From Nisaea sp. (GTDB taxonomy: Bacteria; Pseudomonadota; Alphaproteobacteria; Thalassobaculales; Thalassobaculaceae), in the NCBI RefSeq assembly GCF_017640745.1, contig NZ_JAEPQA010000010.1, positions 47,587 to 111,586 on the forward strand: 64,000 nucleotides of DNA, given 5' to 3'. The translations under genes were made by a program, and so were the position numbers. How positions within the stretch are numbered: position 1 is the first letter of the stretch; every line of letters starts with the position of its first letter. Below the pieces are notes generated by a model. It was not told the DNA's origin and did no database searches. It was given only the letters and a program-made list of their open reading frames with translations. Of this stretch, positions 2,860 through 58,078 are shown piece after piece.

Positions 2860-4299
2860 ATGACACTGCACCGCAACCTTATTGGCGGCGAATGGGTCGA
2901 AGGCAGCAATGCCAGCGACAACATCAACCCGTCCAACACCAACGACGTGGTCGGCCAGTTCGCAATGGCGGATGCCGCCGCCACCGAGCAGGCGATCGAC
3001 GCCGCCGTCGCCGCCTCGCACGCCTGGGCCCGCAGCCCGATCCAGCAGCGCCACGACATCCTCGCCGCCGCCTCGGCCGAGATCATGGCGCGCAAGGACG
3101 AGCTCGGCCGCCTGCTCTCCCGCGAGGAAGGCAAGACGCTGGCCGAGGGCATCGGCGAGACCATCCGAGCCGCGCAGATCTTCGATTTCTTCGCCGGCGA
3201 ATGCCTGCGCCTCTCCGGCGAGAAGCTCGCATCGACCCGTCCGGGCCTGGATGTCGAGATCACCCGCGAGCCGGTCGGCGTGGTCGGCATCATCACGCCC
3301 TGGAACTTCCCGATCGCGATCCCGGCCTGGAAGATCGCGCCGGCGCTCTGCTACGGCAACACGGTGGTGTTCAAGCCGGCAGGCCTGGTGCCGGGTTGCG
3401 CCTGGGCCCTCGTCGAGATTCTGAAGAAGGCGGGCCTGCCGGACGGCGTTCTGAACCTCGTCATGGGCAGCGGCGGTACGGTCGGCGAGGCGATCCTGTC
3501 CAGCACGAAGATCCATGCCGTGACCTTCACCGGCTCGGTCTCGACCGGCGCCCATGTCGCGGCGAAATGCTCGGCGACGATGAAGAAGTACCAGCTCGAG
3601 ATGGGCGGCAAGAACCCGATGGTGGTGCTTGACGACGCCGATCTCGCGACTGCGGTCGACGTTTCCGTAAACGGCGCCTTCTTCTCCACCGGCCAGCGCT
3701 GCACCGCCTCCTCGCGCCTGATCGTCACGGAAGGTATCCACGACAGGTTCGTCGCCGCCTGCATCGAGAAACTGCAGAGCCTGAATGTCGACGACGCGCT
3801 CAAGGCCGGGACCCATATTGGCCCTGTTGTGGACGAAAGCCAGCTGGCGCAGGACGAGAAATACATCCAGATCGGCAAGGACGAAGGCGCCAAGCTGGCC
3901 TGGGGTGGCGAACGGCTGAACCGCGAGACGCCGGGCTTCTATCTGCAGCCTGCCCTCTTCACCGAGACCACCAATTCCATGCGAATCAACCGCGAGGAAG
4001 TGTTCGGCCCGGTGGCGAGCGTCATCAAGGTGAAGGATTACGACGAGGCCCTCGCGGTCGCCAACGACACGACGTTCGGCCTCTCCTCGGGCATCTGCAC
4101 ATCGAGCCTCAAATATGCGAGCCACTTCAAGCGCAATTCGGAGGCCGGCATGGTCATGGTCAACCTGCCGACGGCGGGCGTAGACTATCATGTGCCGTTC
4201 GGCGGCCGGAAGGGCTCCAGCTACGGTTCGCGCGAGCAGGGCAGGTATGCAGCCGAGTTCTACACAACGGTGAAGACCGCCTATACACTTCCAATCTGA
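2860..4299 (+). CDS. NAD(P)-dependent aldehyde dehydrogenase, ketoglutarate-semialdehyde type
   Basis: At 479 residues this is a full-length ALDH-superfamily enzyme. Visible catalytic elements are TPWNF (Asn149), the cofactor lysine in VFKPAG (Lys172), the Rossmann motif FTGSVSTG, the general base in LEMGGK (Glu247) and the nucleophile in GQRCTAS (Cys281). Such enzymes oxidise 2,5-dioxopentanoate (alpha-ketoglutarate semialdehyde) or succinate semialdehyde in the cytoplasm. The AraD1-like gene just upstream argues for the former. Start: GAGAGGGAACACCC precedes the ATG. A 10-bp hairpin follows the stop. Substrate specificity is an inference from context. Confidence 0.9.
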   Translation: MTLHRNLIGGEWVEGSNASDNINPSNTNDVVGQFAMADAAATEQAIDAAVAASHAWARSPIQQRHDILAAASAEIMARKDELGRLLSREEGKTLAEGIGETIRAAQIFDFFAGECLRLSGEKLASTRPGLDVEITREPVGVVGIITPWNFPIAIPAWKIAPALCYGNTVVFKPAGLVPGCAWALVEILKKAGLPDGVLNLVMGSGGTVGEAILSSTKIHAVTFTGSVSTGAHVAAKCSATMKKYQLEMGGKNPMVVLDDADLATAVDVSVNGAFFSTGQRCTASSRLIVTEGIHDRFVAACIEKLQSLNVDDALKAGTHIGPVVDESQLAQDEKYIQIGKDEGAKLAWGGERLNRETPGFYLQPALFTETTNSMRINREEVFGPVASVIKVKDYDEALAVANDTTFGLSSGICTSSLKYASHFKRNSEAGMVMVNLPTAGVDYHVPFGGRKGSSYGSREQGRYAAEFYTTVKTAYTLPI

Positions 4300-4321
4300 C
4301 GCAGTTACGCGTCCAATCGCG

Positions 4322-4347
4322 CGGCCGGCACATCCCCGTGCCGGCCG
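4322..4347 (+). terminator. Hairpin terminator after the aldehyde dehydrogenase
   Basis: A perfect 10-bp stem (4322-4331 with 4338-4347) and a 6-base loop lie 22 bases after the dehydrogenase stop, followed by the T-rich TTCGTATTT. The PaiB-like gene then starts at 4372, so it probably has its own promoter or depends on read-through. Confidence 0.6.
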
Positions 4348-4371
4348 TTCGTATTTCAGGAGAGAAGTCCC

Positions 4372-5007
4372 ATGTACGTGCCGCCGCATTTCCGCGAACA
4401 GAGTCTCGACGTGCTGCATGAGACGATCCGACGAATTGCCCTCGGCACCGTCGTCACGCTCGGCCCGGACGGGCTGATCGGCAGCCATGTGCCGATGCTG
4501 CTCGACCCGACGAAGGGCGAGTTCGGCACCCTAACCGGCCATCTGGCGAAAGCGAACCTGCAGGCCAAGGGCGCAGACGAAAGCGTCGAGGCCTTGGCCA
4601 TGTTCCTTGGGCCGGAGGCCTACATCACGCCGAACTGGTATGCGACCAAGCAGGAAAGCGGCAAGGTCGTACCGACATGGAACTACATCGCCGTCCATGC
4701 CTACGGCCCGATCACCTATCACGACGACGCGGATTGGCTGCGCGGCATGGTCTCGCGGCTGACGGACGTGCACGAAGCCTCGAACGCACAGCCCTGGGAA
4801 GTCTCGGACGCGCCGGAGCCTTTCATCCAGTCCCAGCTCAAAGGCATCATCGGTTTCGAGATCCCGATCACGCGGATCGAGGGCAAGTGGAAGCTGAGCC
4901 AGAACCGGCCGGCCGCCGACAAGGAGGGTGTCATGTCCGGACTCGAGGCTCGCGACGGCGCCGATGCTGAGATCACCAAGGTCACGCACGAACGCCTCAA
5001 GGCCTGA
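4372..5007 (+). CDS. PaiB-family FMN-binding negative regulator-like protein
   Basis: The 211-residue protein begins MYVPPHFRE, as PaiB-family proteins do, and has the family blocks GPDGLIGSHVPMLLD, VPTWNYIAVHAYG, LKGIIGFEIPI and KLSQNRPAADKEGV. The fold is that of pyridoxamine-phosphate-oxidase-like FMN-binding split barrels. Bacillus PaiB was described as a negative regulator of protease and sporulation genes, but most homologues, including this one, have no proven DNA-binding role and may simply be flavin or heme proteins. Length is typical. The Shine-Dalgarno AGGAGAGAAG precedes the ATG. Confidence 0.85.
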   Translation: MYVPPHFREQSLDVLHETIRRIALGTVVTLGPDGLIGSHVPMLLDPTKGEFGTLTGHLAKANLQAKGADESVEALAMFLGPEAYITPNWYATKQESGKVVPTWNYIAVHAYGPITYHDDADWLRGMVSRLTDVHEASNAQPWEVSDAPEPFIQSQLKGIIGFEIPITRIEGKWKLSQNRPAADKEGVMSGLEARDGADAEITKVTHERLKA

Positions 5008-5012
5008 GCGGA

Positions 5013-5049
5013 CAAAAAAGAACGGCCGCCTAGGGGGAAGCGGCCGTTC
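5013..5049 (-). terminator. Intrinsic terminator of the first glycine-zipper lipoprotein gene
   Basis: The perfect 10-bp stem GAACGGCCGC/GCGGCCGTTC (5020-5029, 5040-5049) is followed on the minus strand by a run of six T (complement of 5014-5019). This is a textbook rho-independent terminator for the gene at 5102-5317. The same stem recurs at 5431-5460 behind its paralogue. Confidence 0.85.
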
Positions 5050-5101
5050 TATGGGGGAACGTCGGGTTGGGGGAGGTCGACGCTCTCGGTAGAACTCTCT
5101 G

Positions 5102-5317
5102 TCAGTTGTCGACGAGGTATGCGGTTCCGGCACCAACACCAGTACCGGCACCGACACCGCAAGACACACATCCGTCGGTCAGCGACGTACTCGGGCCAAG
5201 GCCGGAGCCGATAGCACCACCGTTCAGCACATAGCTCTCTGTCGCGCCCCCACCGACACAGGCGGAAAGCAACAGCATGCCTCCGGCAATGGCCGGCAGG
5301 ATCAGAATGCGTCGCAT
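5102..5317 (-). CDS. Small glycine-zipper outer-membrane lipoprotein (copy 1)
   Basis: The ATG at 5317 is preceded by AGGAGAGGAG, so the frame extending to 5350 is not used. The 71-residue product has a lipoprotein signal (MRRILILPAIAGGMLLLSAC, lipobox LSAC, Cys20). A short Gly/Ala-rich body follows with a GGAIGSG block, the CxxC-containing DGCVSCG and a GVGAGTGVGAGTAY glycine zipper. Mature proteins of this kind sit in the outer membrane or periplasm. Function is unknown. A longer paralogue (5507-5752) lies immediately upstream on the same strand, and both copies end in the same hairpin. Confidence 0.75.
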   Translation of the reverse strand: MRRILILPAIAGGMLLLSACVGGGATESYVLNGGAIGSGLGPSTSLTDGCVSCGVGAGTGVGAGTAYLVDN

Positions 5318-5430
5318 GTCTTTGCTCCTCTCCTGTTTCGGGGGAGGCATCTCGCCTCGCTTGTATGGACAATGCGGCAGGACGGAAAAGGTTCCATGCA
5401 GGAAGAAATTATTCCGGCCCCCGAATGCAC

Positions 5431-5460
5431 GAACGGCCGCCTGAGGGATGGCGGCCGTTC
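5431..5460 (-). terminator. Hairpin after the second glycine-zipper lipoprotein gene
   Basis: The stem GAACGGCCGC/GCGGCCGTTC (5431-5440, 5451-5460) with a 10-base loop is identical in stem and loop length to the hairpin at 5020-5049. Here no clean T run follows on the minus strand, so termination may be weaker and some transcripts could continue into copy 1. Confidence 0.6.
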
Positions 5461-5506
5461 ATCCGGAGGATGTCGGGAGATTGGAGAACTGTCGCTCTCC
5501 CGGACC

Positions 5507-5752
5507 TCAATCCGCTCCCTTCTCCTCGTTCTTGATCTTGTCGTGAATATAGCCCGCACCGGCACCGACGCCGGCACCGATCGCCGCTCCGCAGGAGACG
5601 CAACCGCCGGTCATCAGCGTACCGACGGCGCCGACACCCGCGCCGATCGCGCCGCCTGACAGCGTGCTCTGCTCCGTCGAATTCATGCCGGTACAGCCGG
5701 AGGCCAGGAGGCCGCCGGCAACCACCGCCGGTAGGATCATGGTGCGTCGCAT
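5507..5752 (-). CDS. Small glycine-zipper outer-membrane lipoprotein (copy 2)
   Basis: The ATG at 5752 follows GAGGAGACGAGAA. The 81-residue product has a lipoprotein signal ending ASGC (Cys20), then LSGGAIGAGVGAVGTL, the CxxC block GGCVSCG, the zipper AAIGAGVGAGAGYIHDKI and a charged tail NEEKGAD. It aligns along its whole length with copy 1. Upstream of both copies is the same short palindromic stretch GAGGCATC(T/C)CGCCTC (near 5344 and 5782), so coding sequence, leader and terminator were duplicated together. No function can be assigned; glycine-zipper lipoproteins are often linked to envelope stress. Confidence 0.75.
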   Translation of the reverse strand: MRRTMILPAVVAGGLLASGCTGMNSTEQSTLSGGAIGAGVGAVGTLMTGGCVSCGAAIGAGVGAGAGYIHDKIKNEEKGAD

Positions 5753-5868
5753 TTCTCGTCTCCTCGAAGCAATCCAGAGGGAGGCATCCCGCCTCACTTG
5801 GAAGAGAACGGCTCTGGCGACAGATTGTTCCAGGACTGGCGGTGCTGCGTATGCAGGGCGCGGAACGA

Positions 5869-6444
5869 TTATCGGGCGTCCAGCTTCCGCACGGAGCCCG
5901 CAACCTGTTCGATCTGGCGAGCCGTCGTATCCGTGCCGGAAACCCTGATCACCGGGCAAGGCAGCCTTGCCATCCACGTCTCATGCGCCCGCCGGCTGCG
6001 GGTTTCCAGTCCGGCCGTGTCGTAGGACGCCGCCCACTCGATGAAGGCCATATGCGCGTCATAATGCGCCCCGCCGGGTTGCAGCGCCTCGGCGCCGTAG
6101 CGCTCCTCCTCGCGCGCGATCAGGCGGTCCATGCGCAGATCGAAGGGCGTGTAGACGAAGACCACGAGATCGAACCGCTCGACCAGCGGCTCGCCCCAGG
6201 ACACAAGCGAGCCGGTCAGGACCCAGCGTTCCGCCGCGTCCACCGCCTCCGTCAGCAGGCGGAGTCTCTCCGGCATCGGGCGTTTCTCGAGGAACCGCGG
6301 CTCGGTCGGCAGCCAGTAGAAATCGTCCGTATCAAGATGCAGATGGCCGAAACGCTCCGCCCAGGCCCGCCCGAAGGTTGACGTGCCGGAGCCCGAGGCG
6401 CCGAGCACGTGGACGCGCTGCGGAAGCGATGACGGATCCGTCAC
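5869..6444 (-). CDS. P-loop nucleotide kinase-like (adenylate-kinase-like) protein
   Basis: The protein carries a Walker A motif, VLGASGSGTST, close to its N-terminus. A DTDDFYW motif and EEERYG further on resemble the AAA_18/adenylate-kinase-like small P-loop proteins often labelled topology modulators. The frame could start at ATG 6501, but that overlaps the upstream amidohydrolase by 53 bases. GTG at 6444, four bases past that gene's TGA, gives a 191-residue protein starting just before the P-loop and is preferred. The gene is translationally close-coupled to the M20 hydrolase. The phosphate acceptor is unknown. Confidence 0.7.
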   Translation of the reverse strand: MTDPSSLPQRVHVLGASGSGTSTFGRAWAERFGHLHLDTDDFYWLPTEPRFLEKRPMPERLRLLTEAVDAAERWVLTGSLVSWGEPLVERFDLVVFVYTPFDLRMDRLIAREEERYGAEALQPGGAHYDAHMAFIEWAASYDTAGLETRSRRAHETWMARLPCPVIRVSGTDTTARQIEQVAGSVRKLDAR

Positions 6445-6448
6445 GGCC

Positions 6449-7618
6449 TCACGCGGATTTCGCGAGACGCGTCTCGACGAGACGGGACCAGTAGCTGGCA
6501 CCGACGGTCAGCGCCTCGTCGTTGAAATCGTATTCCGGATGATGCAGGCCCGCCGTATCTCCGTTGCCGCACCAGATATAGGCGCCCGGCTTTTCCTGCA
6601 GCATGTAGGAGAAGTCCTCCGCGCCCATGCTCGGCGGCAGATCGCGGTCGACCTTGCCCGTACCGCCCGCGACCTCGGCGCAGATCCCGGCCGCGAAATC
6701 CGCTTCCTTCGACGTGTTCACCGTAGCCGGATATCCGGTAATGTAATTCAGCTCCGCCGTCGCGCCGTAGGTCGCCGCGATGCCGTTCGCGACCCGCCGG
6801 ATCTGGTCCGGCAGACCGGCCTGGATCTCCGGGTTGAACACCCGGCAGGTGCCCCGCAGGATGATCTCGTCCGGAATGACGTTGAAGGCGTCGCCCGCAT
6901 GGAACTGGGTGGCGCTGATCACGAGCGCCTCGGCCGGATCGGTGTTACGGCTGGTGATGGTCTGCAGCGCCATGACGATGTTCGCCCCGACGACGACCGG
7001 ATCGATGCCCTGGTGCGGCATCGCCGCATGCGCGCCGCGGCCCTTGATGGCGATCTCCCAGTTGTCGCGGGCCGCCATGACCGGCCCCGCTGAGACGCCG
7101 AAACAGCCGACCGGCATTTCTGGCCGGTTGTGCATGCCGTAGACCTCGTCCACCGGAAACAGCTTGAAGAGACCGTCCTCGATCATCTTCTTGCCGCCGC
7201 CCTTGCCTTCCTCGGCAGGCTGGAAGATCAGGTGCACGGTGCCGGCGAAGTTTCGCGTCTCCGAGAGGTACTTCGCCGCGCCGAGCAGCATCGTGGTGTG
7301 CCCGTCATGACCGCAGGCATGCATCTTTCCGTCGTTTTTCGAGCGGTGCTTGGGCGTACCCTTCTCCTGGATCGGCAGCGCATCCATGTCCGCGCGCAGC
7401 CCGATCGCCGGACCGTCGCCGCCATTGCCCTTGATGGTCGCGACGACCCCCGTACCGCCGAGCCCGCGATGGATCTCAATGCCCATCTCCGTCAGCCGGG
7501 CGGCAACGAAATCGGCGGTCTCGAATTCCTCGAAGCCAAGCTCCGGGTTCTGATGGATGTGCCGCCGCCATCCCGTCAGCTCTGCATGGAAGTCGGCGAT
7601 GCGATTGACGATAGGCAT
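6449..7618 (-). CDS. M20 family amidohydrolase (hippurate hydrolase-like)
   Basis: This 389-residue enzyme starts MPIVNRIADFHAELTGWRRH and has the M20D hallmarks: RRHIHQNPELGFEE, GLRADMDALPI, the metal-binding MHACGHDGHT, FQPAEEGKGG, YGMHNRPEMPVG and, near the C-terminus, SMGAEDFSYML. Family members hydrolyse N-acyl amino acids such as hippurate or N-acetyl-amino acids, using a dinuclear metal centre, in the cytoplasm. Length is typical of HipO/AmaA proteins. The acyl group and amino acid cannot be read from sequence. A P-loop protein gene follows with only 4 bases between. Confidence 0.9.
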   Translation of the reverse strand: MPIVNRIADFHAELTGWRRHIHQNPELGFEEFETADFVAARLTEMGIEIHRGLGGTGVVATIKGNGGDGPAIGLRADMDALPIQEKGTPKHRSKNDGKMHACGHDGHTTMLLGAAKYLSETRNFAGTVHLIFQPAEEGKGGGKKMIEDGLFKLFPVDEVYGMHNRPEMPVGCFGVSAGPVMAARDNWEIAIKGRGAHAAMPHQGIDPVVVGANIVMALQTITSRNTDPAEALVISATQFHAGDAFNVIPDEIILRGTCRVFNPEIQAGLPDQIRRVANGIAATYGATAELNYITGYPATVNTSKEADFAAGICAEVAGGTGKVDRDLPPSMGAEDFSYMLQEKPGAYIWCGNGDTAGLHHPEYDFNDEALTVGASYWSRLVETRLAKSA

Positions 7619-48481: not shown

Positions 48482-49084
48482 TCAGCCCGGCACCCGGTAG
48501 CGGTAGATGTTGGCGTGCATCGCTTCCGAGACCACTTCCGTCTCCTCCGCCTCCCAGCCCGGCAGCGCGAAGGCATTGGCGATCACCACCGCCCCCGGCC
48601 GGAGGTCGGCGCTCAGCTTCCGCTCCAGCGTCCGCATGGGCGCCACCATGAGATAGCAGAGCAGCAGGTCCGCATCCGCGAGATCCGCCTTCAGGAAATC
48701 CGCCCGGCGGATCTCGAGATTGCGCCGGGGCTGGAGCAGCCGGCGGATATGGCAGACGAGCCAGGGGAGCGGCGAGAGCTCGATCGCGACCACCCGCGCG
48801 TCGGGAAACCGCGCGGCGAGTTCGAAGGCGATCCCGCCCCAGCCGCAGCCGAGCTCGTAGATCGTCGCCGGCCGCGCGTCCTCCGGGATCAGGCGGAACA
48901 TCGCCCGCCGTGCGAAAGGGTTGGACGGCATCGGCGGCACCCCGGTGCGGATCGTGTACCAGAGGATCGAGAGCGCGGCGGCGAGCAGCAGCGCGAACAG
49001 CGCCGCCTCGAAGACGCCGTGCTGCACCAGTTCCTGGAACAGCAGGCCGAGCGACGGCGCCTCATTGCCGGTTTCAGCGCTCAT
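48482..49084 (-). CDS. Membrane-anchored SAM-dependent methyltransferase
   Basis: The ATG at 49084 lies inside the last codons of the IMPACT gene (11-base overlap). The 200-residue protein has one N-terminal membrane helix (AALFALLLAAALSILWYTIR), then a Rossmann methyltransferase: TIYELGCGWGGIAFELAARF (motif I), VVAIELSPLPWLVCHI and DADLLLCYLMV. The methylated substrate is unknown; the helix suggests work at the membrane. Its overlap with a YigZ/IMPACT gene implies translational coupling. Confidence 0.8.
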   Translation of the reverse strand: MSAETGNEAPSLGLLFQELVQHGVFEAALFALLLAAALSILWYTIRTGVPPMPSNPFARRAMFRLIPEDARPATIYELGCGWGGIAFELAARFPDARVVAIELSPLPWLVCHIRRLLQPRRNLEIRRADFLKADLADADLLLCYLMVAPMRTLERKLSADLRPGAVVIANAFALPGWEAEETEVVSEAMHANIYRYRVPG

Positions 49085-49460
49085 GGTCTGGGTCCGCGCG
49101 CCCGGGGCCCGCACGCAGGGCGTCGAGATAGATCCGGACCGCGCTCTGCACATGGCGGAAGCGGTCGCCGCCGAGATGCTTGCCGCCGAACCAGCGCGTC
49201 ACCACGACGATATGGTCCTGCAGCCCTTCGCGCTCCAGCATGCGCAGGATCACCATCCCCGCCCCCGCCTCGCCGTCGTCGTTCTTCGCCGCGCCGCCGG
49301 CCGAGAGCAGCGCCCAGGTGTTATGGGTCGCCTTGGCGAATTTCTTCCTGCCGCAGAGCGTCCGGACGAAGGCCTTCGCCTCCTCCTCGGACGCGCAGGG
49401 CCCGCCCGAGACCGCATATTTCGATCCGCGATCGCTGATGATGTTGTCGAGAATGCGCAT
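49074..49460 (-). CDS. IMPACT/YigZ (UPF0029) family protein
   Basis: A 128-residue short form of the IMPACT family, containing RGSKYAVSGGPCASEEEAKA, ATHNTWALL, the diagnostic NDDGEAGAGMVILRML and VVVTRWFGGKHLGGDRFRH. It corresponds to the N-terminal YigZ domain alone. Eukaryotic IMPACT modulates Gcn1/Gcn2; bacterial YigZ function is not settled. It is the first gene of a two-gene overlap with the methyltransferase. Confidence 0.87.
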   Translation of the reverse strand: MRILDNIISDRGSKYAVSGGPCASEEEAKAFVRTLCGRKKFAKATHNTWALLSAGGAAKNDDGEAGAGMVILRMLEREGLQDHIVVVTRWFGGKHLGGDRFRHVQSAVRIYLDALRAGPGRADPDHER

Positions 49461-49522: not shown

Positions 49523-49951
49523 TCACTCTACCGCGCCGTCGATATAGACCCAGCCCGCGCCCTCGCGGCGGAACCGGCTGGTCTCGGTCATCCGGCCCGT
49601 CTGCGGTCCCATGCGCCAGGTTGCGGTGAAGCGGACAATGGCGGTGTCGGGCCCGGTCGCCTCGTGCCGCTCGATTTTCAGCCCGGTCCAGACCTGCGCC
49701 GGGTCGAGCGTCAGCGCCAACGGCCGCGTCTCCGCCGCCCAGCTCTTCTGCAGGTAGGCCGTGTTGCCCCGCGCGAAAGCCGCATAGCGCGCGCGCATCA
49801 GCTCCTCCGCATCCCGCGCCGGGGTGCCGGAATGGAGCCTGCCGCAGCAGGCGAGATAGGTTTTGCCGCTAGCGCAGGGGCATGGTTCGAACAAGGGTGT
49901 CTCCGGGGGTTGAAAGGGTCGTGGAGGGCGGGATGTTGCCCCCGCTTTCAT
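49523..49951 (-). CDS. YchJ-family SEC-C motif protein
   Basis: A 142-residue protein. After a variable 18-residue lead comes the SEC-C zinc motif PCPCASGKTYLACCGRLH, followed by the NTF2-like YchJ domain: AEELMRARYAAFARGNTAYL, the WAAETRP block and RFTATWRMGP. The family is widespread and uncharacterised; the SEC-C motif binds zinc as at the SecA C-terminus. The start could be the ATG at 49951 but ribosome-binding sequence is poor. The low-GC island begins about 25 bases upstream of it. Confidence 0.85.
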   Translation of the reverse strand: MKAGATSRPPRPFQPPETPLFEPCPCASGKTYLACCGRLHSGTPARDAEELMRARYAAFARGNTAYLQKSWAAETRPLALTLDPAQVWTGLKIERHEATGPDTAIVRFTATWRMGPQTGRMTETSRFRREGAGWVYIDGAVE

Positions 49952-49976
49952 CGCTCTTTGTGTCAGGTGGCTGCAT

Positions 49977-49988
49977 TCGACCCATAGC
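49977..49988 (+). repeat. Left 12-bp direct repeat flanking the low-GC island
   Basis: TCGACCCATAGC occurs here and again at 53919-53930 in the same orientation. The two copies bracket the AT-richer gene, as a duplicated target or attachment core would. The chance of an unplanned 12-mer match between two flanks of about 100 bases is below one in a thousand by rough estimate. Confidence 0.6.
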
Positions 49989-50008
49989 AGACGTTCTTAA
50001 ACCTCCAT

Positions 50009-50037
50009 TTGTCTGCAGTGCAACATTCTGAAATAAT
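50009..50037 (+). promoter_or_regulatory. Possible sigma-70 promoter of the island gene
   Basis: TTGTCT (50009-50014) and AATAAT (50032-50037) are separated by 17 bases and lie about 50 bases before the ATG at 50085. The pair resembles a housekeeping promoter and would let the island gene carry its own transcription start. It overlaps the left inverted-repeat segment at 50013-50028. Confidence 0.4.
50013..50028 (+). repeat. Left inverted-repeat arm
   Basis: CTGCAGTGCAACATTC matches the reverse complement of 53890-53905 at 14 of 16 positions. Its core TGCAGTGCA is itself nearly palindromic. Together the arms look like imperfect terminal inverted repeats just inside the outer direct repeats. 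Confidence 0.45.
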
Positions 50038-50084
50038 TCAATTATCGATTGATAGTGGTAGCCTTCAAGGCGCATCATTTATTC

Positions 50085-53000
50085 ATGAAAGAACCGATTG
50101 ATATCGAAGAATTCTTGGCACGGATGCAACCTCCTTCGATCCCGGATGAGACGTTCATACCTGAATACGAAGAACTGTTCCGTGTAAGTGGATGGAAGCG
50201 GAACTACGTCGCAACAATTCTCGCGTGTCTGACGACGATTCCTGATCTTCATGCCAATGGCATCAGACTAGATTGGCTCCAACGTCTGGTGATCGCGAAA
50301 GCAGAAGGTAAGAGAAAACCAAAAATTCGAGAGTTGGCGGCAGCTCTCAACTTAGGGCTGGAGAAAGCAGGGGTTCTTCGGCTTGAAGACCCAATTGAAG
50401 ATCTGTTCTGTGAAATAGTGGCAACAAGACGCGGAAATTTCCGGATATTTCCGGGACAATGGGAAACTGCCGGCCCTTATACCCAAACGCTGCTAGCCGC
50501 TTTTGAACAACTTCCGGGAAGCCAATTCAAAACGGACGTACTGGAGTCCGTGTACGGTATACTTCGCATCAGCGATATGATTGCTGCAAGGAGCGACGTA
50601 CATAGACAGACTGAATCAGGCGGAGTGGCGCAAGGCGAAATAAGAGTCCCCGGTGAGGCAGCGATCAACCGCATCTCTACCAGGGTGAAATTTACGGACA
50701 GGACACTGGAAGCGCTAGATATTCGAAAGGAAGCGCTGACACCATACTTTTTGTCGGCAGAGAATTATCCGTACGTTTCAGATAGGGAAGTCGGCGAAAC
50801 GCCATTGGAATTTCACCCGTTTTTGGAGACTCCAAACGGGATTATTGTGGTCAGTCCGAACAATCTGTCGATAGCAGCTAGAGCTGTGATGATTCATGCT
50901 GCCGTCGAAGGCGGTGTTTCAGATTTGCTTCAGCAAATTTTGCTGCACGAACAGGAGATTTACGCAGAGCGGACGGGCTTCTGGCCGACAACTAATCTGA
51001 AGCTTTCGAGACCAAACGAATTCGGATTTAGAGCATCCATCTGCGAATTTGAAGAGGGTCGGTTTCTGCAAGTAATTCAATTGCCTACAACGTTTGACGG
51101 ATTTCCGCGCAACGGGTTCGGTATCGTGCGACGAGCTGGCGAGGAAGCGAACAAATTTCTTGGAACGCAAATTGAAGGCTTTTGGAAGTTTGCAGCCAAA
51201 CAAGAAAACGGTCGCCAATTTGTTTCCGTGCTTCTTACGAGTGGGTGGGGGGCGCCACACTCAATTTTTCCCGCGATAGACGAGAGCAAAGTGCCTGCCA
51301 ATTGGCTGTATTTTCATCTCAGTTTCGCGGAGGCCGCTGTGCTTGGCGCCTGTGAAAACGGGAAGTTTCAAGACATATGTCGCCTCTTGAAACAAGAGCA
51401 ATTGTTAGAGAACGCCGAATTTCACTTTCAGAACGCAAACGGCCTAACAAATCTATTTGGCTTTTGGCGTGTTACGGACGGGAACTTGATTCCTGAATAT
51501 ATGAGTGACATGGAACCGCCATGTAACTTGATGATTCCAACAGACGATCTGTATGCGCCCAGAATTGAAGCGGCCCGTAAGCAAAACCTACTCTCGCTCC
51601 CGTTTCCCGACGGGAGCCACAAATTGGTTCAGCATACTGATTTCGAGGAATATTGGGCGCTAGATCCGGTATTTGGTAGTTTGGAGGATCTATCCGAGCG
51701 GCGTCTTGTTGGCGCTGTAGCGCACGAGGAATACATTTGGTGGATTGAGGCCGTTCCTGACGAGGATAGCGTTGCACACCGGCAATACCGAATCTGGCAG
51801 GCAGCACTCCATTGGATAGCAGCAGTCGGTCGGCAAGTTGCGCGTACGTATCCAAAGTCTTTCCCCAAAGGTATTTTTCAAACGACGATCATTGTCCCGA
51901 TCGACGATGGCTTAATGAGGATGGATAGGTCTTCATTCAACTCCACTCCTCTAGCCAAAACGGTTCAGACTCAAGGCCAAGAAGAAGTCCGTATTACCAA
52001 TGGGTGGTTTCAGCACCTGTGGAGACCCGAGAACGATGCAGAAATCGAACTGACTGCCGCAATTCTGGAATCCGTCGCAGCTCGTCATGCGCCGCTTGAG
52101 CGCGATGTACTGAGGGAAGCGGTGAGGTCGGCCATTCCGTCGAGAGATTGGCGATGGCTGCACGCAAGTACGGCGGAAAGACCGATAGATCGGCTTAGAG
52201 CAACGGGGCTTGTAAGCGGCTTCCAGGAAATCCCGTGGTCAGCGACAACGTTGGCAAAATGCTGTTCGATATGGACCTTTCGCGATCGGAGTAATGGACT
52301 TCGTATAGAGGGCGAGCAAGATTGCAGCGCCTTTGTTTTGCTTTATGCACGCCAATTGCTGGGCACGTTGATCGAAAGAATTCGGCGATTTGACTGTAGG
52401 GCGCTAATCACACTGGCTGCGGACGGTTATCAAGCAGCACGCTTGGAGCAATCTCAATGGCGTGCGACTATTCTGGCGCTCCGCGCCATACACGGTGCGG
52501 AAGCAGATTCCCGAGCTTTTGAACGACAGAGCAACATTAACGCTGTCCAGCGTGCGGCGAAAGCGATTTGCGAAGTTGCTGCTTGCGAGTCCCCAACAGA
52601 GGGTGGTCTTAAACCTAGCCTAACAGATTTTCATGACTTATGTGCGCTCGTACTCCTTTTGGTAGGAAACGGCGATTTGCTGGGTGCAATAAAGTCCGGT
52701 CTTATAGCCCCTGAGATCCGTATAAGCCCTGCGGGCGATTTGCTTTCCGAGCGTTCGGTATTTGAAACGACATTGCGGCCCGGAGCCGAGTGGTTAAATG
52801 AGCGAGCGCTGAACGAGGCGGCAGAAACTTACAAAGAAGAACGTAAAGAAGAAGCAGCAACGCCGGAGAAACCCGGGGAATTGCAACTGCCTGCGGCGCT
52901 AAAGGATGCAATTCGCGCAGAATACGGGGTACCAGCCGAGGCTTTCTTTCGTTTTCAGTTTGCGACGGTCGAATTCGCCGCTGAGCGCGAACAAGCTGTA

Positions 53001-53846
53001 TTATTCCTTAAGCGCTCTGAATTGGTGCAAGCGATGAGCGAGCGGATGGACACTCCGGTCGTGGAGGTCGCTCAATTATGCGAACGGCTGTCTCTCTCGA
53101 ACAGACCGGATTGGTATGACTTATCTGGCGGGATACCTGCATCCAGTATCGATCTTACACGCTTTGATAGACCGATCTCTGTTATCAATCGGCCGCTGCT
53201 CTGTATCGATGCGGAAGAAGATCCAACCGTAGTCCTAGCGCCGGCATTCGTGAGTGATTCCACGATGTATTCGTTCTCGGGCCTGATGGAAGGCAGCCTG
53301 CAGGAGAAATATTGGGTTTCGAAAGAAGCGATCAGCTACGCGGGTGCACGCGCTCATGCGACTGGAGAAGAATTCGAAACTGATGTTGCAGAGCGACTGA
53401 AGGAGCTTGGTCTTAAGGCTTGGTCACGATGCAAGCTGTCCTGGGCGCTCAACCAGAAAGTAGATCCGTCTTTTGGGGATATTGATGTTCTCGCTGTCGA
53501 CAAGAGCGGTAAGACAGTCTGGGTCATTGAAGCGAAGAACCTGAAACTTTGCAGAACCATTGGGGAGGTGGCTGCACGTTTGACAGAGTACCGAGGCCTG
53601 ATGGTCAAAGATAGCAAAGGACGTGAGAAACCTGACAAATTGCTTCGTCATTTGAACCGTGTTCGGTTTCTCAGGGAGAACTGCAGAGCATTATGTCAGC
53701 GTTTAGATCTTGATGAAACGCCTGAGGTAAGGGGGCTCTTGATTGTCGACTCACCGCAACCGATGAATTTCCATATGATCGAAAAGATTGCAGACACCGA
53801 TAGCACCTTTCTCGATCAAGTAGATAAGTTTGATTTTTGCGGATAG
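50085..53846 (+). CDS. Large low-GC protein with C-terminal PD-(D/E)XK nuclease signature; N-terminus unknown
   Basis: The ATG at 50085 gives 1253 residues (a TTG at 50049 is also open). Sampled base composition is about 48% GC, against about 65% outside. The last 160 residues carry a nuclease-like pattern: an acidic helix GEEFETDVAERLKEL (Glu1095-1098), then FGDIDVLAVDKSGKTVWVIEAKNL with Asp1134 and Glu1149-x-Lys1151, as in Mrr/NERD-type PD-(D/E)XK folds. The first 1090 residues show no motif I recognise: no Walker A, helicase or methyltransferase block. It is a lone gene between ychJ and an MFS gene, with repeats at both flanks. Restriction, antiphage or mobile-element cargo is inferred. 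Confidence 0.7.
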   Translation: MKEPIDIEEFLARMQPPSIPDETFIPEYEELFRVSGWKRNYVATILACLTTIPDLHANGIRLDWLQRLVIAKAEGKRKPKIRELAAALNLGLEKAGVLRLEDPIEDLFCEIVATRRGNFRIFPGQWETAGPYTQTLLAAFEQLPGSQFKTDVLESVYGILRISDMIAARSDVHRQTESGGVAQGEIRVPGEAAINRISTRVKFTDRTLEALDIRKEALTPYFLSAENYPYVSDREVGETPLEFHPFLETPNGIIVVSPNNLSIAARAVMIHAAVEGGVSDLLQQILLHEQEIYAERTGFWPTTNLKLSRPNEFGFRASICEFEEGRFLQVIQLPTTFDGFPRNGFGIVRRAGEEANKFLGTQIEGFWKFAAKQENGRQFVSVLLTSGWGAPHSIFPAIDESKVPANWLYFHLSFAEAAVLGACENGKFQDICRLLKQEQLLENAEFHFQNANGLTNLFGFWRVTDGNLIPEYMSDMEPPCNLMIPTDDLYAPRIEAARKQNLLSLPFPDGSHKLVQHTDFEEYWALDPVFGSLEDLSERRLVGAVAHEEYIWWIEAVPDEDSVAHRQYRIWQAALHWIAAVGRQVARTYPKSFPKGIFQTTIIVPIDDGLMRMDRSSFNSTPLAKTVQTQGQEEVRITNGWFQHLWRPENDAEIELTAAILESVAARHAPLERDVLREAVRSAIPSRDWRWLHASTAERPIDRLRATGLVSGFQEIPWSATTLAKCCSIWTFRDRSNGLRIEGEQDCSAFVLLYARQLLGTLIERIRRFDCRALITLAADGYQAARLEQSQWRATILALRAIHGAEADSRAFERQSNINAVQRAAKAICEVAACESPTEGGLKPSLTDFHDLCALVLLLVGNGDLLGAIKSGLIAPEIRISPAGDLLSERSVFETTLRPGAEWLNERALNEAAETYKEERKEEAATPEKPGELQLPAALKDAIRAEYGVPAEAFFRFQFATVEFAAEREQAVLFLKRSELVQAMSERMDTPVVEVAQLCERLSLSNRPDWYDLSGGIPASSIDLTRFDRPISVINRPLLCIDAEEDPTVVLAPAFVSDSTMYSFSGLMEGSLQEKYWVSKEAISYAGARAHATGEEFETDVAERLKELGLKAWSRCKLSWALNQKVDPSFGDIDVLAVDKSGKTVWVIEAKNLKLCRTIGEVAARLTEYRGLMVKDSKGREKPDKLLRHLNRVRFLRENCRALCQRLDLDETPEVRGLLIVDSPQPMNFHMIEKIADTDSTFLDQVDKFDFCG

Positions 53847-53889
53847 ATGCCGGATTTGTATCAGCGAGATTGCAGCACACACAGACCTT

Positions 53890-53905
53890 GAATCTTGCAG
53901 TGCAG
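53890..53905 (-). repeat. Right inverted-repeat arm
   Basis: GAATCTTGCAGTGCAG is the 14/16 inverted partner of 50013-50028. It lies 44 bases after the island gene's stop and 14 bases before the right outer direct repeat. Confidence 0.45.
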
Positions 53906-53918
53906 CGAATGCCCCCTA

Positions 53919-53930
53919 TCGACCCATAGC
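53919..53930 (+). repeat. Right 12-bp direct repeat flanking the low-GC island
   Basis: TCGACCCATAGC, identical and in the same orientation as 49977-49988. The distance between repeat starts is 3942 bases, so excision between them would remove the whole gene and leave a single copy. The stretch to the MFS start at 54072 is C-rich and holds no other feature. Confidence 0.6.
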
Positions 53931-54071: not shown

Positions 54072-55316
54072 ATGTCCCTTTCCGAGCGCCTGACCGGCGT
54101 CACCCTCAGGGAGAACATTCCGATCACGCTGGTCGGGCTCGGCCATGGCGCGATTCACTGGACGGCCGCGTGTTTCTACCTGCTGCTGCCGCCGCTCTCG
54201 ATGGCACTCGGGCTCAGCTACACGGAGACCGGCGCGCTGGTCAGCGTGTTCCATGTCAGCTCCTTCGCCGCCAATTTCTTCAGCGGCCCGCTGATCGACA
54301 TTTCCGGGCGCAAGGTGCTGTTCCAGATCCTCTCCGTCGCAATCGGCGCGCTGGCGCTGGCCGGGATCGGAATGGCGGCGAGTTTCCTCGCCATCGCGGG
54401 GCTCGTCGCGGTGATCGGCGTCACCGCCAATCTCTGGCACCCGCCGGCGATCTCCTTCCTCTCCGGGCGCTATCCGAAGAACCGGGGCTACGCGCTCTCG
54501 ATCCACGGGCTCGGCGCCAGCACCGGCGACACGATCGCCCCGCTCGCGGCGGGCGCGCTGATCGCCGCGCTCGGCTGGCAGCAGGCGGCGGAAGTCTCCG
54601 CGCTCCCCGTGCTCGCGGTCGCGGCGATCCTCGCCGTGGGGCTGCTGCGCTACGAGACTGTGCGGCCGAAGACCGGCGCGGCGCACGGGGTCGGGCTCGG
54701 CGAATATCTCTCCGGGCTGAAGCGCGTCGTCGCCAACCGCGCGATCCTCGGGCTCTGCCTGATGAGCGGCTTCCGCTCGATGACCCAGCAGGGCCTGCTC
54801 GCCTTCCTGCCGCTCTATCTCGCGCATGACATGGGCTCGGGCCCGGTGATGATCGGCCTCGCCATGGCGGCGATGCAGGTCGGCGGGGTGATCGCGACGC
54901 CGGTCGCGGGCGTCTGGTCGGACCGGGCGGGACGGCGCACCGTGGTGCTGGCCGGGCTCGGCGCCTCGACGCTGATCATCGCCAGCCTCACCTTCCTCGG
55001 CAGCGAGACCGCCTTCATCGCCGGGATCTCCCTGCTCGGCTTCGTGCTCTTCGCGGTCCGGCCGGTGGTGCACAGCTGGATGATGGACCTGACGCCGCCC
55101 CATCTCGGCGGCTCGGCGACCAGCCTGATGTTCGGCACGCAGAGCGGCTTCGCCATGGTCATGCCGCTCGCCGGCGGCATGCTGGCGGACGCCTACGGGC
55201 TGGTCTCGGTGTTCTACATGCTGGCGGCCTCGATCCTGGTCACCAACCTGATCACGCTCCGCCTGCCGAAGGACAGGGCTTCGGCCGAAGCGGAGAGCCA
55301 GGACCGGGGAGCCTAG
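54072..55316 (+). CDS. MFS transporter (Fsr-like exporter)
   Basis: A 414-residue protein with twelve predicted membrane helices. The N-terminal SLSERLTGVTLRENIPITL and the early GHGAIHWTAACFYLLLPP resemble fosmidomycin-resistance (Fsr-type) exporters. The ISGRKVLFQIL loop and VWSDRAGRRTVVLAG loop are the two characteristic MFS loops 2-3 and 8-9. It is an inner-membrane drug/solute exporter with unknown substrate. Codon use is again high-GC, so it is not part of the neighbouring island. Confidence 0.87.
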   Translation: MSLSERLTGVTLRENIPITLVGLGHGAIHWTAACFYLLLPPLSMALGLSYTETGALVSVFHVSSFAANFFSGPLIDISGRKVLFQILSVAIGALALAGIGMAASFLAIAGLVAVIGVTANLWHPPAISFLSGRYPKNRGYALSIHGLGASTGDTIAPLAAGALIAALGWQQAAEVSALPVLAVAAILAVGLLRYETVRPKTGAAHGVGLGEYLSGLKRVVANRAILGLCLMSGFRSMTQQGLLAFLPLYLAHDMGSGPVMIGLAMAAMQVGGVIATPVAGVWSDRAGRRTVVLAGLGASTLIIASLTFLGSETAFIAGISLLGFVLFAVRPVVHSWMMDLTPPHLGGSATSLMFGTQSGFAMVMPLAGGMLADAYGLVSVFYMLAASILVTNLITLRLPKDRASAEAESQDRGA

Positions 55317-56372: not shown

Positions 56373-57911
56373 TCAGTAGCGATCCGCGAAGGATCGTTCG
56401 ACCGGTCCGCGCGCGGTGATCTCGATCCCGGTCAGCGTCCGCTCGCTATTGGTCTGGCGCCAGGAGAGCATCGCCCGCGCGGCCGCCAGTTCCTCCGCCG
56501 CATAGTCCGGATGGCCCGAGAGATTGACCAGCTCCCCCGGGTCCGTCTCGAGATCGAAGAAGAGCGGCGGCAGGGCGGCGAAATGGACGTATTTGAAGCG
56601 CTCGCCGCGATGCACGGCGAGCTGGCACTGGTCGAGCTTGAGGCCGAGCGCCGCCTCCGGCTTGCCGCTGACGACCTCGCGGAAATCGAACTCCCAGTGC
56701 GCCGCCTCGCGCCAGTCGGCGGGTTCCCCGCCGCGGAGGAACGGCATAAGCGAGCGGCCGTCATATTGCAGCGGGACATCGATGCCGCTCCACTCGGCGA
56801 GCGTCGGCGCGATGTCGATGGATTCGGTGAATTTGCGCACCCGCGTGCCGCGCGGCCCGTCCGGCGCCCGGACGATCAGCGGGATGTGATAGCTGCCCTC
56901 GAAATAGCCGAGCTTCCCGAAGAGATGGTGCTCGCCCATCATCTCGCCATGGTCGCTGGTCAGCACGATCAGCGTGTTCTCGTAGGCGCCCGCCGCCTTC
57001 AGTCCGGCGATCATCCGGCCGAGCTGGGCGTCGACCTCGGCGATCATGCCGTAATAGACCGCGCGCACGGCCCGGATCTCCTCGTCCGACCAGTCCGTCA
57101 CCGGCCGGTCGCCGCCGCCCGGCACGAAGGATTTCGATTTCACCTCGCCCAGCACGTAACGGACGAAGGGGTGCAGCGCCCCCTCCTCCTCCGGAGAGCC
57201 CGCGCGGACCGGCATCTCGACCGCCTCGTCCGGCACCATCGAATTGTACGGCTCCGGCACCGAGAAGGGCGGGTGCGGGCGGATGAAGGAAAGATGCGCG
57301 AACCAGGGCGCCCCGCTCTCCTGCCGCTCCACGAAATCGAGGAAGCGCTCGGTGATGTAGCCGGTTTCCGTGTATTCCGCCGAGAAGCGCGGAATCAGAT
57401 CGGAGCGCTTGAAGGGGGTCGGAACCTTGCCATAGACCCCGCCGAGCCCGTCCGAGGCGTCCTCGCCCTTGCCTTCCAGCCATTGCAGCCAGTCCGCCGC
57501 CTGCTCGTCGAAGCGGGCGATCCGCTCGAAGCCCGGCAGGACCTCCTCGTAGGTCTTGAGCCGCGGATCGTCCGCTGCCAGGGCGCGCGGATCGAAACTC
57601 TGGTCGGTATAGCCGAACAGCGCCGGCCCGTAGCCCGCGCGCCGGCCTTCGAGCGCGATGTTGGTGAAGCGGGCATCTAGCGGCGTGCCGTTGCGGCAGA
57701 CCCGGTGGTTCATCTGGTAGAGCCCGGTATAGAGCGAGGCGCGCGCGGGGGAACAGGGCGCGGCCTGGCAGTAATGCCGCTCGAAGAGCACGCCGTCGGC
57801 CGCGAGCGCGTCGATGTTCGGCGTCTTCACGGCGGGATGGCCGAGGACGGAGAGACAGTCGGCGCGCCACTGGTCGGCGGTGATGACGAGGATGTTTCCG
57901 GGAAGGGACAT
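56373..57911 (-). CDS. Formylglycine-dependent sulfatase/phosphonate monoester hydrolase
   Basis: The ATG at 57911 gives 512 residues. Motifs: metal-binding ILVITADQWRADCLSVLGHP, the CSPAR formylglycine signature in YCQAAPCSPARASLYTGLY (the Cys is matured), FIRPHPPFSVPEP, LIVLTSDHGEMMGEHHLFGK and YVHFAALPPLFFDLETDPGE. Length and the last three blocks match rhizobial phosphonate monoester hydrolase more than classic arylsulfatases. Such enzymes are promiscuous for phosphonate, phosphodiester and sulfate esters. A formylglycine-generating enzyme is needed from elsewhere on the genome. Confidence 0.9.
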   Translation of the reverse strand: MSLPGNILVITADQWRADCLSVLGHPAVKTPNIDALAADGVLFERHYCQAAPCSPARASLYTGLYQMNHRVCRNGTPLDARFTNIALEGRRAGYGPALFGYTDQSFDPRALAADDPRLKTYEEVLPGFERIARFDEQAADWLQWLEGKGEDASDGLGGVYGKVPTPFKRSDLIPRFSAEYTETGYITERFLDFVERQESGAPWFAHLSFIRPHPPFSVPEPYNSMVPDEAVEMPVRAGSPEEEGALHPFVRYVLGEVKSKSFVPGGGDRPVTDWSDEEIRAVRAVYYGMIAEVDAQLGRMIAGLKAAGAYENTLIVLTSDHGEMMGEHHLFGKLGYFEGSYHIPLIVRAPDGPRGTRVRKFTESIDIAPTLAEWSGIDVPLQYDGRSLMPFLRGGEPADWREAAHWEFDFREVVSGKPEAALGLKLDQCQLAVHRGERFKYVHFAALPPLFFDLETDPGELVNLSGHPDYAAEELAAARAMLSWRQTNSERTLTGIEITARGPVERSFADRY

Positions 57912-58078
57912 GACGGTCCGGGCTCCGCACGCGACAGGAAAGGACAAGACCGGCGAACGCTCCCACCTTGTTCCGATCCGCTCAACAGAAAATTCCGTTA
58001 CGGAAGTGGCGGTTGTTTTCCGTCTGCTGCTAATCTCGCCTCCGTTTCCATCCCGCCCCGTTTCCCGGACCCGACCGT

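Follow-up and report, generated by a model that had tools for sequence, protein, structure and literature searches.

A low-GC single-gene island in Nisaea sp. encodes a divergent Upx-like protein with a predicted C-terminal PD-(D/E)XK nuclease domain

The window, by which we mean the whole 64,000-nucleotide stretch of Nisaea sp. DNA that was analysed, contains a gene for a large Upx-like protein that is set between a YchJ-type gene and a gene for an MFS transporter and is bordered by two copies of a short direct repeat. The features of the locus are as follows.

49523..49951, minus strand: YchJ-type gene, left flank of the proposed hotspot (Pfam YchJ_M-like, 1.1e-20; SEC-C)
49977..49988, plus strand: left 12-bp direct repeat TCGACCCATAGC at the island edge, exact copy
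50085..53846, plus strand: gene of the Upx-like protein, 1253 amino acids, ATG start, TTG at 50049 possible (PADLOC Upx 437 bits, NF042954 496 bits, match to PDB 9wuf)
50085..53336, plus strand: N-terminal part of the protein, about 1084 amino acids, homologous to the same part of Upx, with a presumed role in sensing or gating
53337..53843, plus strand: predicted PD-(D/E)XK (NERD-like) nuclease domain, about residues 1085-1253, with Asp1134, Glu1149, Lys1151 and Glu1161 (model, structure matches, conservation)
53919..53930, plus strand: right 12-bp direct repeat TCGACCCATAGC at the island edge, exact copy
54072..55316, plus strand: MFS transporter gene, right flank of the proposed hotspot (Pfam MFS_1, 5e-42; close homologue in 5 of 5 genomes of the genus, its own included)

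The reading frame is translated over 1253 codons without an internal stop, and the alternative TTG start, 36 bases upstream of the ATG, would yield a protein of 1265 amino acids. The gene has a GC content of 50.6% as compared to 64.8% in the window outside positions 49952-53930, and 3.76-kb segments sampled every 500 bases do not fall below 61.2% outside the island. The composition changes sharply at the left and the right island end, and within the island the gene stands alone, the other open reading frames of at least 100 amino acids all overlapping it on the opposite strand. These figures bear out the first-pass annotation, which had described a single low-GC gene in a high-GC chromosome; its value of about 48% matches the first two kilobases of the gene (48.4 and 49.1%) but not the next two (54.1 and 51.0%) or the gene as a whole. 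The Upx-like gene is a real foreign gene.

The edges of the island coincide with the exact 12-bp direct repeat, and when the two intergenic stretches were dinucleotide-shuffled 1000 times, a shared word of this length arose once. In the 4.5-Mb assembly to which the window belongs the exact word occurs at two sites, both of them island edges, as compared to one site for the reversed control. We ruled out that the repeat is a genome-wide intergenic (REP-like) element, since the exact 12-mer is found only twice in the genome; the count of 8 for CGACCCATAGCNGA with at most one mismatch, versus 10 for the reversed-pattern control, also speaks against such an element. Neither an integrase nor a transposase was found among the five flanking genes scanned (Na/Pi cotransporter, methyltransferase, UPF0029, YchJ and MFS), and the scans for promoters (5 versus a mean of 3.5, sd 2.4) and terminators (4 versus 4.9) remained at chance level.

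The protein matches Upx over nearly its entire length. The PADLOC Upx model scores 437 bits (E 2.4e-131; protein residues 36-1238 of 1253 against model positions 46-1260 of 1271), the NCBIfam model NF042954 (Upx_antiphage) scores 495.9 bits (E 1.8e-148, residues 34-1238), which is below its equivalog cut-off of 1900 bits, and phmmer matched one sequence of the PDB, 9wuf_A (E 5.7e-96), with protein residues 37-1236 aligned to 47-1259. The entry 9WUF, released 2026-02-11, is entitled 'Cryo-EM structure of Upx' and its chain is named 'Restriction endonuclease'. The homology is collinear over almost the full length; together with a C-terminal PD-(D/E)XK domain carrying the D, E and K residues, this places the window protein among Upx-like proteins in the wide sense. 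As judged by sequence it is Upx-like and not a Upx equivalog, and we name it so because the five of its ten clade members that were scored reach 463-496 bits against the cut-off of 1900. At this score, and with about 24% identity to canonical Upx, a function equal to that of canonical Upx would not be assured. Upx itself is an already known one-gene antiphage protein and the kind of system is thus not new, so that the 'new one-gene defence system' proposed earlier has to be given up: the protein is homologous to known Upx from end to end, and this covers the N-terminal region for which no motif had been recognised.

The name Upx traces to Gao et al. 2020, which the passage on Upx in PMC10855318 cites for it, and the wording 'Gao Upx' appears in an excerpt of PMC13249269. 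As described in the relevant passages of the respective papers, Upx occurs in Pseudomonas almost exclusively in one hotspot, in genomes carrying PAGI-1 (PMC12629846), and within ICEs/IMEs of Vibrio europaeus (PMC12824646). A search of the full text of open-licence papers returned no paper on the mechanism of Upx; PMC12118408 concerns UpxY, and the word Upx is absent from the main text of PMC13367071.

Residues 925-1253 were modelled from 12 sequences with a mean pLDDT of 87.6, and the sole Foldseek match of this model at E <= 0.001 was 9wuf (E 6e-19). VIA-align likewise aligned it with 9wuf (Z 18.9) and, with Z up to 10.4 for chains other than Upx, with AF1548 (10.4), McrBC chain M (9.4), the fdxN-element excision controlling factor AVA_3312 (2okf; 9.3), Cdn1 (9.2), Can2 (9.0), a Pyrococcus repair endonuclease (8.9), EndoMS and a Holliday junction resolvase (8.5 each), and nicking and restriction enzymes near Z 8. 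We take these structures to belong to the PD-(D/E)XK superfamily. DSSP assigns to the model (model numbering) a helix at 156-183, strands at 187-192, 209-214 and 220-228, a helix at 235-244 and a later strand at 290-298, which is the alpha-beta-beta-beta-alpha-beta core of the superfamily; Asp1134 (position 210) lies on strand 209-214 and Glu1149 and Lys1151 (positions 225 and 227) on strand 220-228, so that the acidic residue and the E-x-K element occupy neighbouring core strands of the model. Asp1134, Glu1149, Lys1151 and Glu1161 are kept in 19 of 19 aligned rows, the window row included, and 9wuf carries the same active-site motif. Asp1132 is not conserved, being Asn in three Bradyrhizobium copies and Glu in Bosea among these 19 rows. 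The related Pfam domain NERD (PF08378) matches residues 1094-1177 with E 0.0049, its 17.8 bits falling short of the gathering score (22.1), and the domain is called NERD-like here. The PD-(D/E)XK fold of the last approximately 170 residues is well supported by the model, and nuclease activity is predicted. Here the first-pass annotation proved right: a C-terminal core of this type had been called from the motif pattern, the three residue numbers Asp1134, Glu1149 and Lys1151 were exact, and the residues are conserved across the homologues.

The preceding approximately 1090 residues are regarded as a Upx-like N-terminal part because the PADLOC, NCBIfam and 9wuf alignments span them. A model of residues 54-1253 (1200 residues) is of low confidence (pLDDT 70.8, pTM 0.47); here too Foldseek matches nothing but 9wuf at E <= 0.001 (E 5.9e-50, TM 0.38), on which the model superposes with an rmsd of about 25 A. 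With so poor a model, the predicted N-terminal fold is described no further than 'as in Upx'. Two likenesses seen in this region of the poor model are not claimed, both having Z values at or near noise: a degenerate second nuclease fold (N.BspD6I, Z 6.9, model residues 78-413; EcoT38I, Z 6.4, 241-370) and an M1-type aminopeptidase (seven rows, Z 6.7-8.1, model residues 484-636), whose HExxH motif is absent from the protein.

What would a protein of this build do? The most likely mechanism, we infer, is that of a phage-triggered DNA nuclease gated by the large N-terminal part. The approximately 1080-residue N-terminal part would keep the nuclease inactive and recognise a phage component or phage DNA; upon infection the C-terminal domain would cut DNA with a divalent metal, and phage replication would be stopped either directly or via killing of the infected cell. 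The DNA that is cut may be that of the phage only or also that of the host. Alternatively, the protein may be a restriction-type nuclease acting on its own: without any phage trigger it would directly cut incoming phage or plasmid DNA, whether modified or not, its N-terminal part serving as the DNA-recognition module. The name given to the 9wuf chain by its depositors and the resemblance of the C-terminal model to McrBC chain M and to restriction and nicking enzymes are in line with this view, as are an HsdS gene and a DNA methyltransferase gene near homologues (L051 and L053, respectively). These neighbours are, however, confined to 2 of 17 homologue loci, the sole methyltransferase gene found nearby in the window (48485-49153, Methyltransf_25) is part of a flank common to the congeners, and Pfam, at E up to 5, finds no DNA-recognition domain in the protein. 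We therefore consider restriction without a trigger possible but rather doubtful, and hold to the phage-triggered, gated nuclease.

In a maximum-likelihood tree of 19 sequences, rooted at the midpoint only and built without the weak matches L006, L007, L043 and L044 and the fragment L050, the window protein falls into a clade of ten with 100/100 support, apart from canonical Upx. The clade comprises the window protein, a protein of genome G038, three from Bradyrhizobium, two from Betaproteobacteria, one from Novosphingobium and two from viral contigs; identity to the window protein is 34-50% within the clade and 17-24% outside it. NF042954 gives 463.5-495.9 bits for the five of the ten members that were scored (window 495.9; L002, L051 and L053 480-481; G441 = L005 463.5), as compared to 2186, 2118 and 1965 bits for the full-length canonical proteins L003, L047 and L048 and 1483 bits for the canonical fragment L037. 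Three clade pairs, the window gene itself not among them, show dN/dS values of 0.10-0.18, and so low a ratio points to selection for function in the clade. This bears on the possibility that the gene is a decaying passenger without present function. Two homologues do have broken frames (L046 and L056) and a plasmid copy (L036) is annotated as two CDS; but the window frame is open over its 1253 codons, its catalytic residues are kept, and the dN/dS values of its clade relatives point the same way, so that we regard decay as highly improbable. In the two broken copies (L046, 7974-11689; L056, 123-3238) the gene is split into two overlapping frames, and these copies are either truly broken or mis-assembled; that of L056 also begins at a contig end, and that of L046 is found on a viral contig that also carries genes for an integrase and a CapP-like peptidase and one of McrC type.

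The Upx-like family is sparse. NF042954 matched in 5 of 398 genomes of the phylum sample, with one match over the cut-off and two of the five weak, and alignment A2 in 5 of 385 genomes of the class sample, two of them weakly. By tblastn five matches were obtained in 72,556 plasmid records and none in 50,697 phage records; the viral contigs of IMG/VR contributed six loci. A single-protein scan of genome contigs found no relative, the seven-row alignment A2 contained no sufficiently conserved stretch, and the four-row alignment A3 yielded six loci. None of 20,395 E. coli records contained a near match to a canonical Upx fragment.

Neighbours were compared at 17 homologue loci with flanks (the window, L036, L038, L039, L045-L048 and L051-L059, L005 being the same as L055), leaving aside L037, L049 and L050 as short contigs or fragments. 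The profile scan covered 31 hand-picked neighbours, those of L036, L055 and L058 not among them, and had no background control. On this basis 10 of the 17 loci have a phage-type integrase or a defence-type neighbour: the integrase in L046, L047, L054, L056 and L059, and defence-type genes in L046 (McrC-type PF10117 and CapP), L038 (caspase-helicase), L039 (Avs2-like, L039:1266-5108), L051 (HsdS), L053 (DNA methyltransferase) and L057 (nSTAND3 NTPase). L048 has only a weak Avs4 match, and in L036 the annotation lists transposases and a VapC-type toxin. In 5 of the 17 no such neighbour was seen (the window, L045, L052, and L055 and L058 with their unscanned neighbours). Two genes (about 220 and 362 amino acids) lie directly upstream of the Upx-like gene in L045 (6169-7922) and L051 (2397-4159); the pair has no PADLOC match in either locus and no Pfam match in L051, and by eye both proteins show acidic-plus-lysine motifs like those of PD-(D/E)XK nucleases.

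Might plasmids or other mobile elements, rather than phages, be what the protein chiefly guards against? Competition between elements is common near integrases and on conjugative plasmids, and homologues are found near integrases in five loci and on two plasmids typed as conjugative. Against this, the family name rests on the antiphage activity of canonical Upx, as the NCBIfam name has it, and a sister species carries the antiphage system DRT3 at the same place. Gao and co-workers are said to have reported this activity of canonical Upx in 2020. We thus find a guard mainly against plasmids quite improbable and favour an antiphage role.

The Upx-like gene is absent from all four congeners, its close relatives, and a search of 35 further genomes of the order did not find it either. 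In G004, whose MFS protein (98% identical) makes it the nearest of the congeners by this measure, genes for Drt3a (E 7.3e-126) and Drt3b (E 1.1e-200) with a low GC content of 44-45% fill the interval from a copy of ychJ to the corresponding MFS gene. The borders of this DRT3 island share no word of at least 9 bases, which does not favour a common repeat-based insertion of both islands. In G001-G003 the alignment crosses from the methyltransferase gene to the MFS gene over about 120 bp, with neither defence system there. A clean empty site was not found among them; the ancestral site is not readable to the base because G001-G003 also lack UPF0029 and ychJ at the locus. The island may, as suggested earlier, be cargo of a minimal mobile element: the 12-bp direct repeat fits this idea, but such an empty site and a mobility gene among the five scanned flanking genes were not found. 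The simplest reading, which rests on two filled sites, is that the locus is a defence hotspot taking different modules.

The G004 locus (L028, G004:C3:440000-455000) holds, at 3206-7195, three partial or whole ychJ copies in one orientation, preceded by an inositol-phosphatase-like gene, with a CEL-III_C lectin-domain gene separating the first copy from the second and a gene of 205 aa the second from the third; DRT3 follows, between the last copy and the MFS gene. Pieces of ychJ seem to have been duplicated in this genome by repeated insertions. The UPF0029-ychJ pair is located elsewhere in G002:C11 (L033) and G003:C89 (L032) and itself seems to have moved, and G001 gave no ychJ match. Finally, a sulfatase gene of the window (56373-57947), about 2.5 kb downstream of the Upx-like gene, encodes a protein 56% identical to a G729 sulfatase (L058, G729:C1:697500-717000, 4614-6131) that is encoded near the G729 Upx-like gene, the two Upx-like proteins being only 23% identical.

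A bolder proposal would make the window gene the founder of a second, functionally distinct Upx clade with its own trigger or target, lying on a 3.94-kb cassette that is framed by the 12-bp direct repeats, has no integrase and is moved in trans; the ychJ-MFS hotspot receiving it would exchange one defence module for another, Upx-like in one species and DRT3 in the next. We regard this combination as speculative and unlikely.

Taken together, we suggest, with a probability of roughly 0.8, that horizontal transfer brought in the island as a single-gene antiphage module, whose product is a divergent Upx-like protein with N-terminal gating and C-terminal DNA cutting as its presumed mechanism. Whole-length homology, the predicted fold with its three catalytic residues, the absence from congeners and DRT3 at the same locus argue for this reading; the NERD score below the gathering score, the pTM of 0.47, the 496 bits versus 1900 and the 5 of 17 loci without an integrase or defence neighbour argue against it. 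The defence setting supposed in the first-pass annotation is thus upheld by the Upx family and by DRT3 in the sister species. Being under the NCBI Upx cut-off, the gene would probably be annotated only as a hypothetical protein; its placement reveals a distinct Upx clade, found in Alpha- and Betaproteobacteria, whose nuclease site is intact and which lends itself to comparison with the solved Upx structure, and a locus where Upx-like and DRT3 modules hold the same place in sister species.

How does the window protein compare with known systems? With Upx (NF042954; PADLOC PDLC02221; PDB 9WUF) it shares length, collinear homology over residues 37-1236, the apparent single-gene organisation, the C-terminal PD-(D/E)XK domain with its GDID...VIE-x-K motif, and many loci near integrases or other defence genes; it differs in its approximately 24% identity, its 496 versus 1900 bits and its separate clade with 100/100 support. 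With NERD and other PD-(D/E)XK nucleases (McrBC chain M, Can2/Cdn1, EndoMS, Holliday junction resolvase, type II restriction enzymes) it has in common the core fold of the last approximately 170 residues and the D...E-x-K site, whereas its approximately 1080 preceding residues have no match to them in the structure search, where the model is poor, and identity is 8-23% in the listed structural alignments other than that with 9wuf. DRT3 (Drt3a and Drt3b of G004), in turn, occupies the same ychJ-MFS interval and is low in GC like the window island, but consists of two reverse transcriptases, with repetitive DNA synthesis as the mechanism described in PMC13174585.
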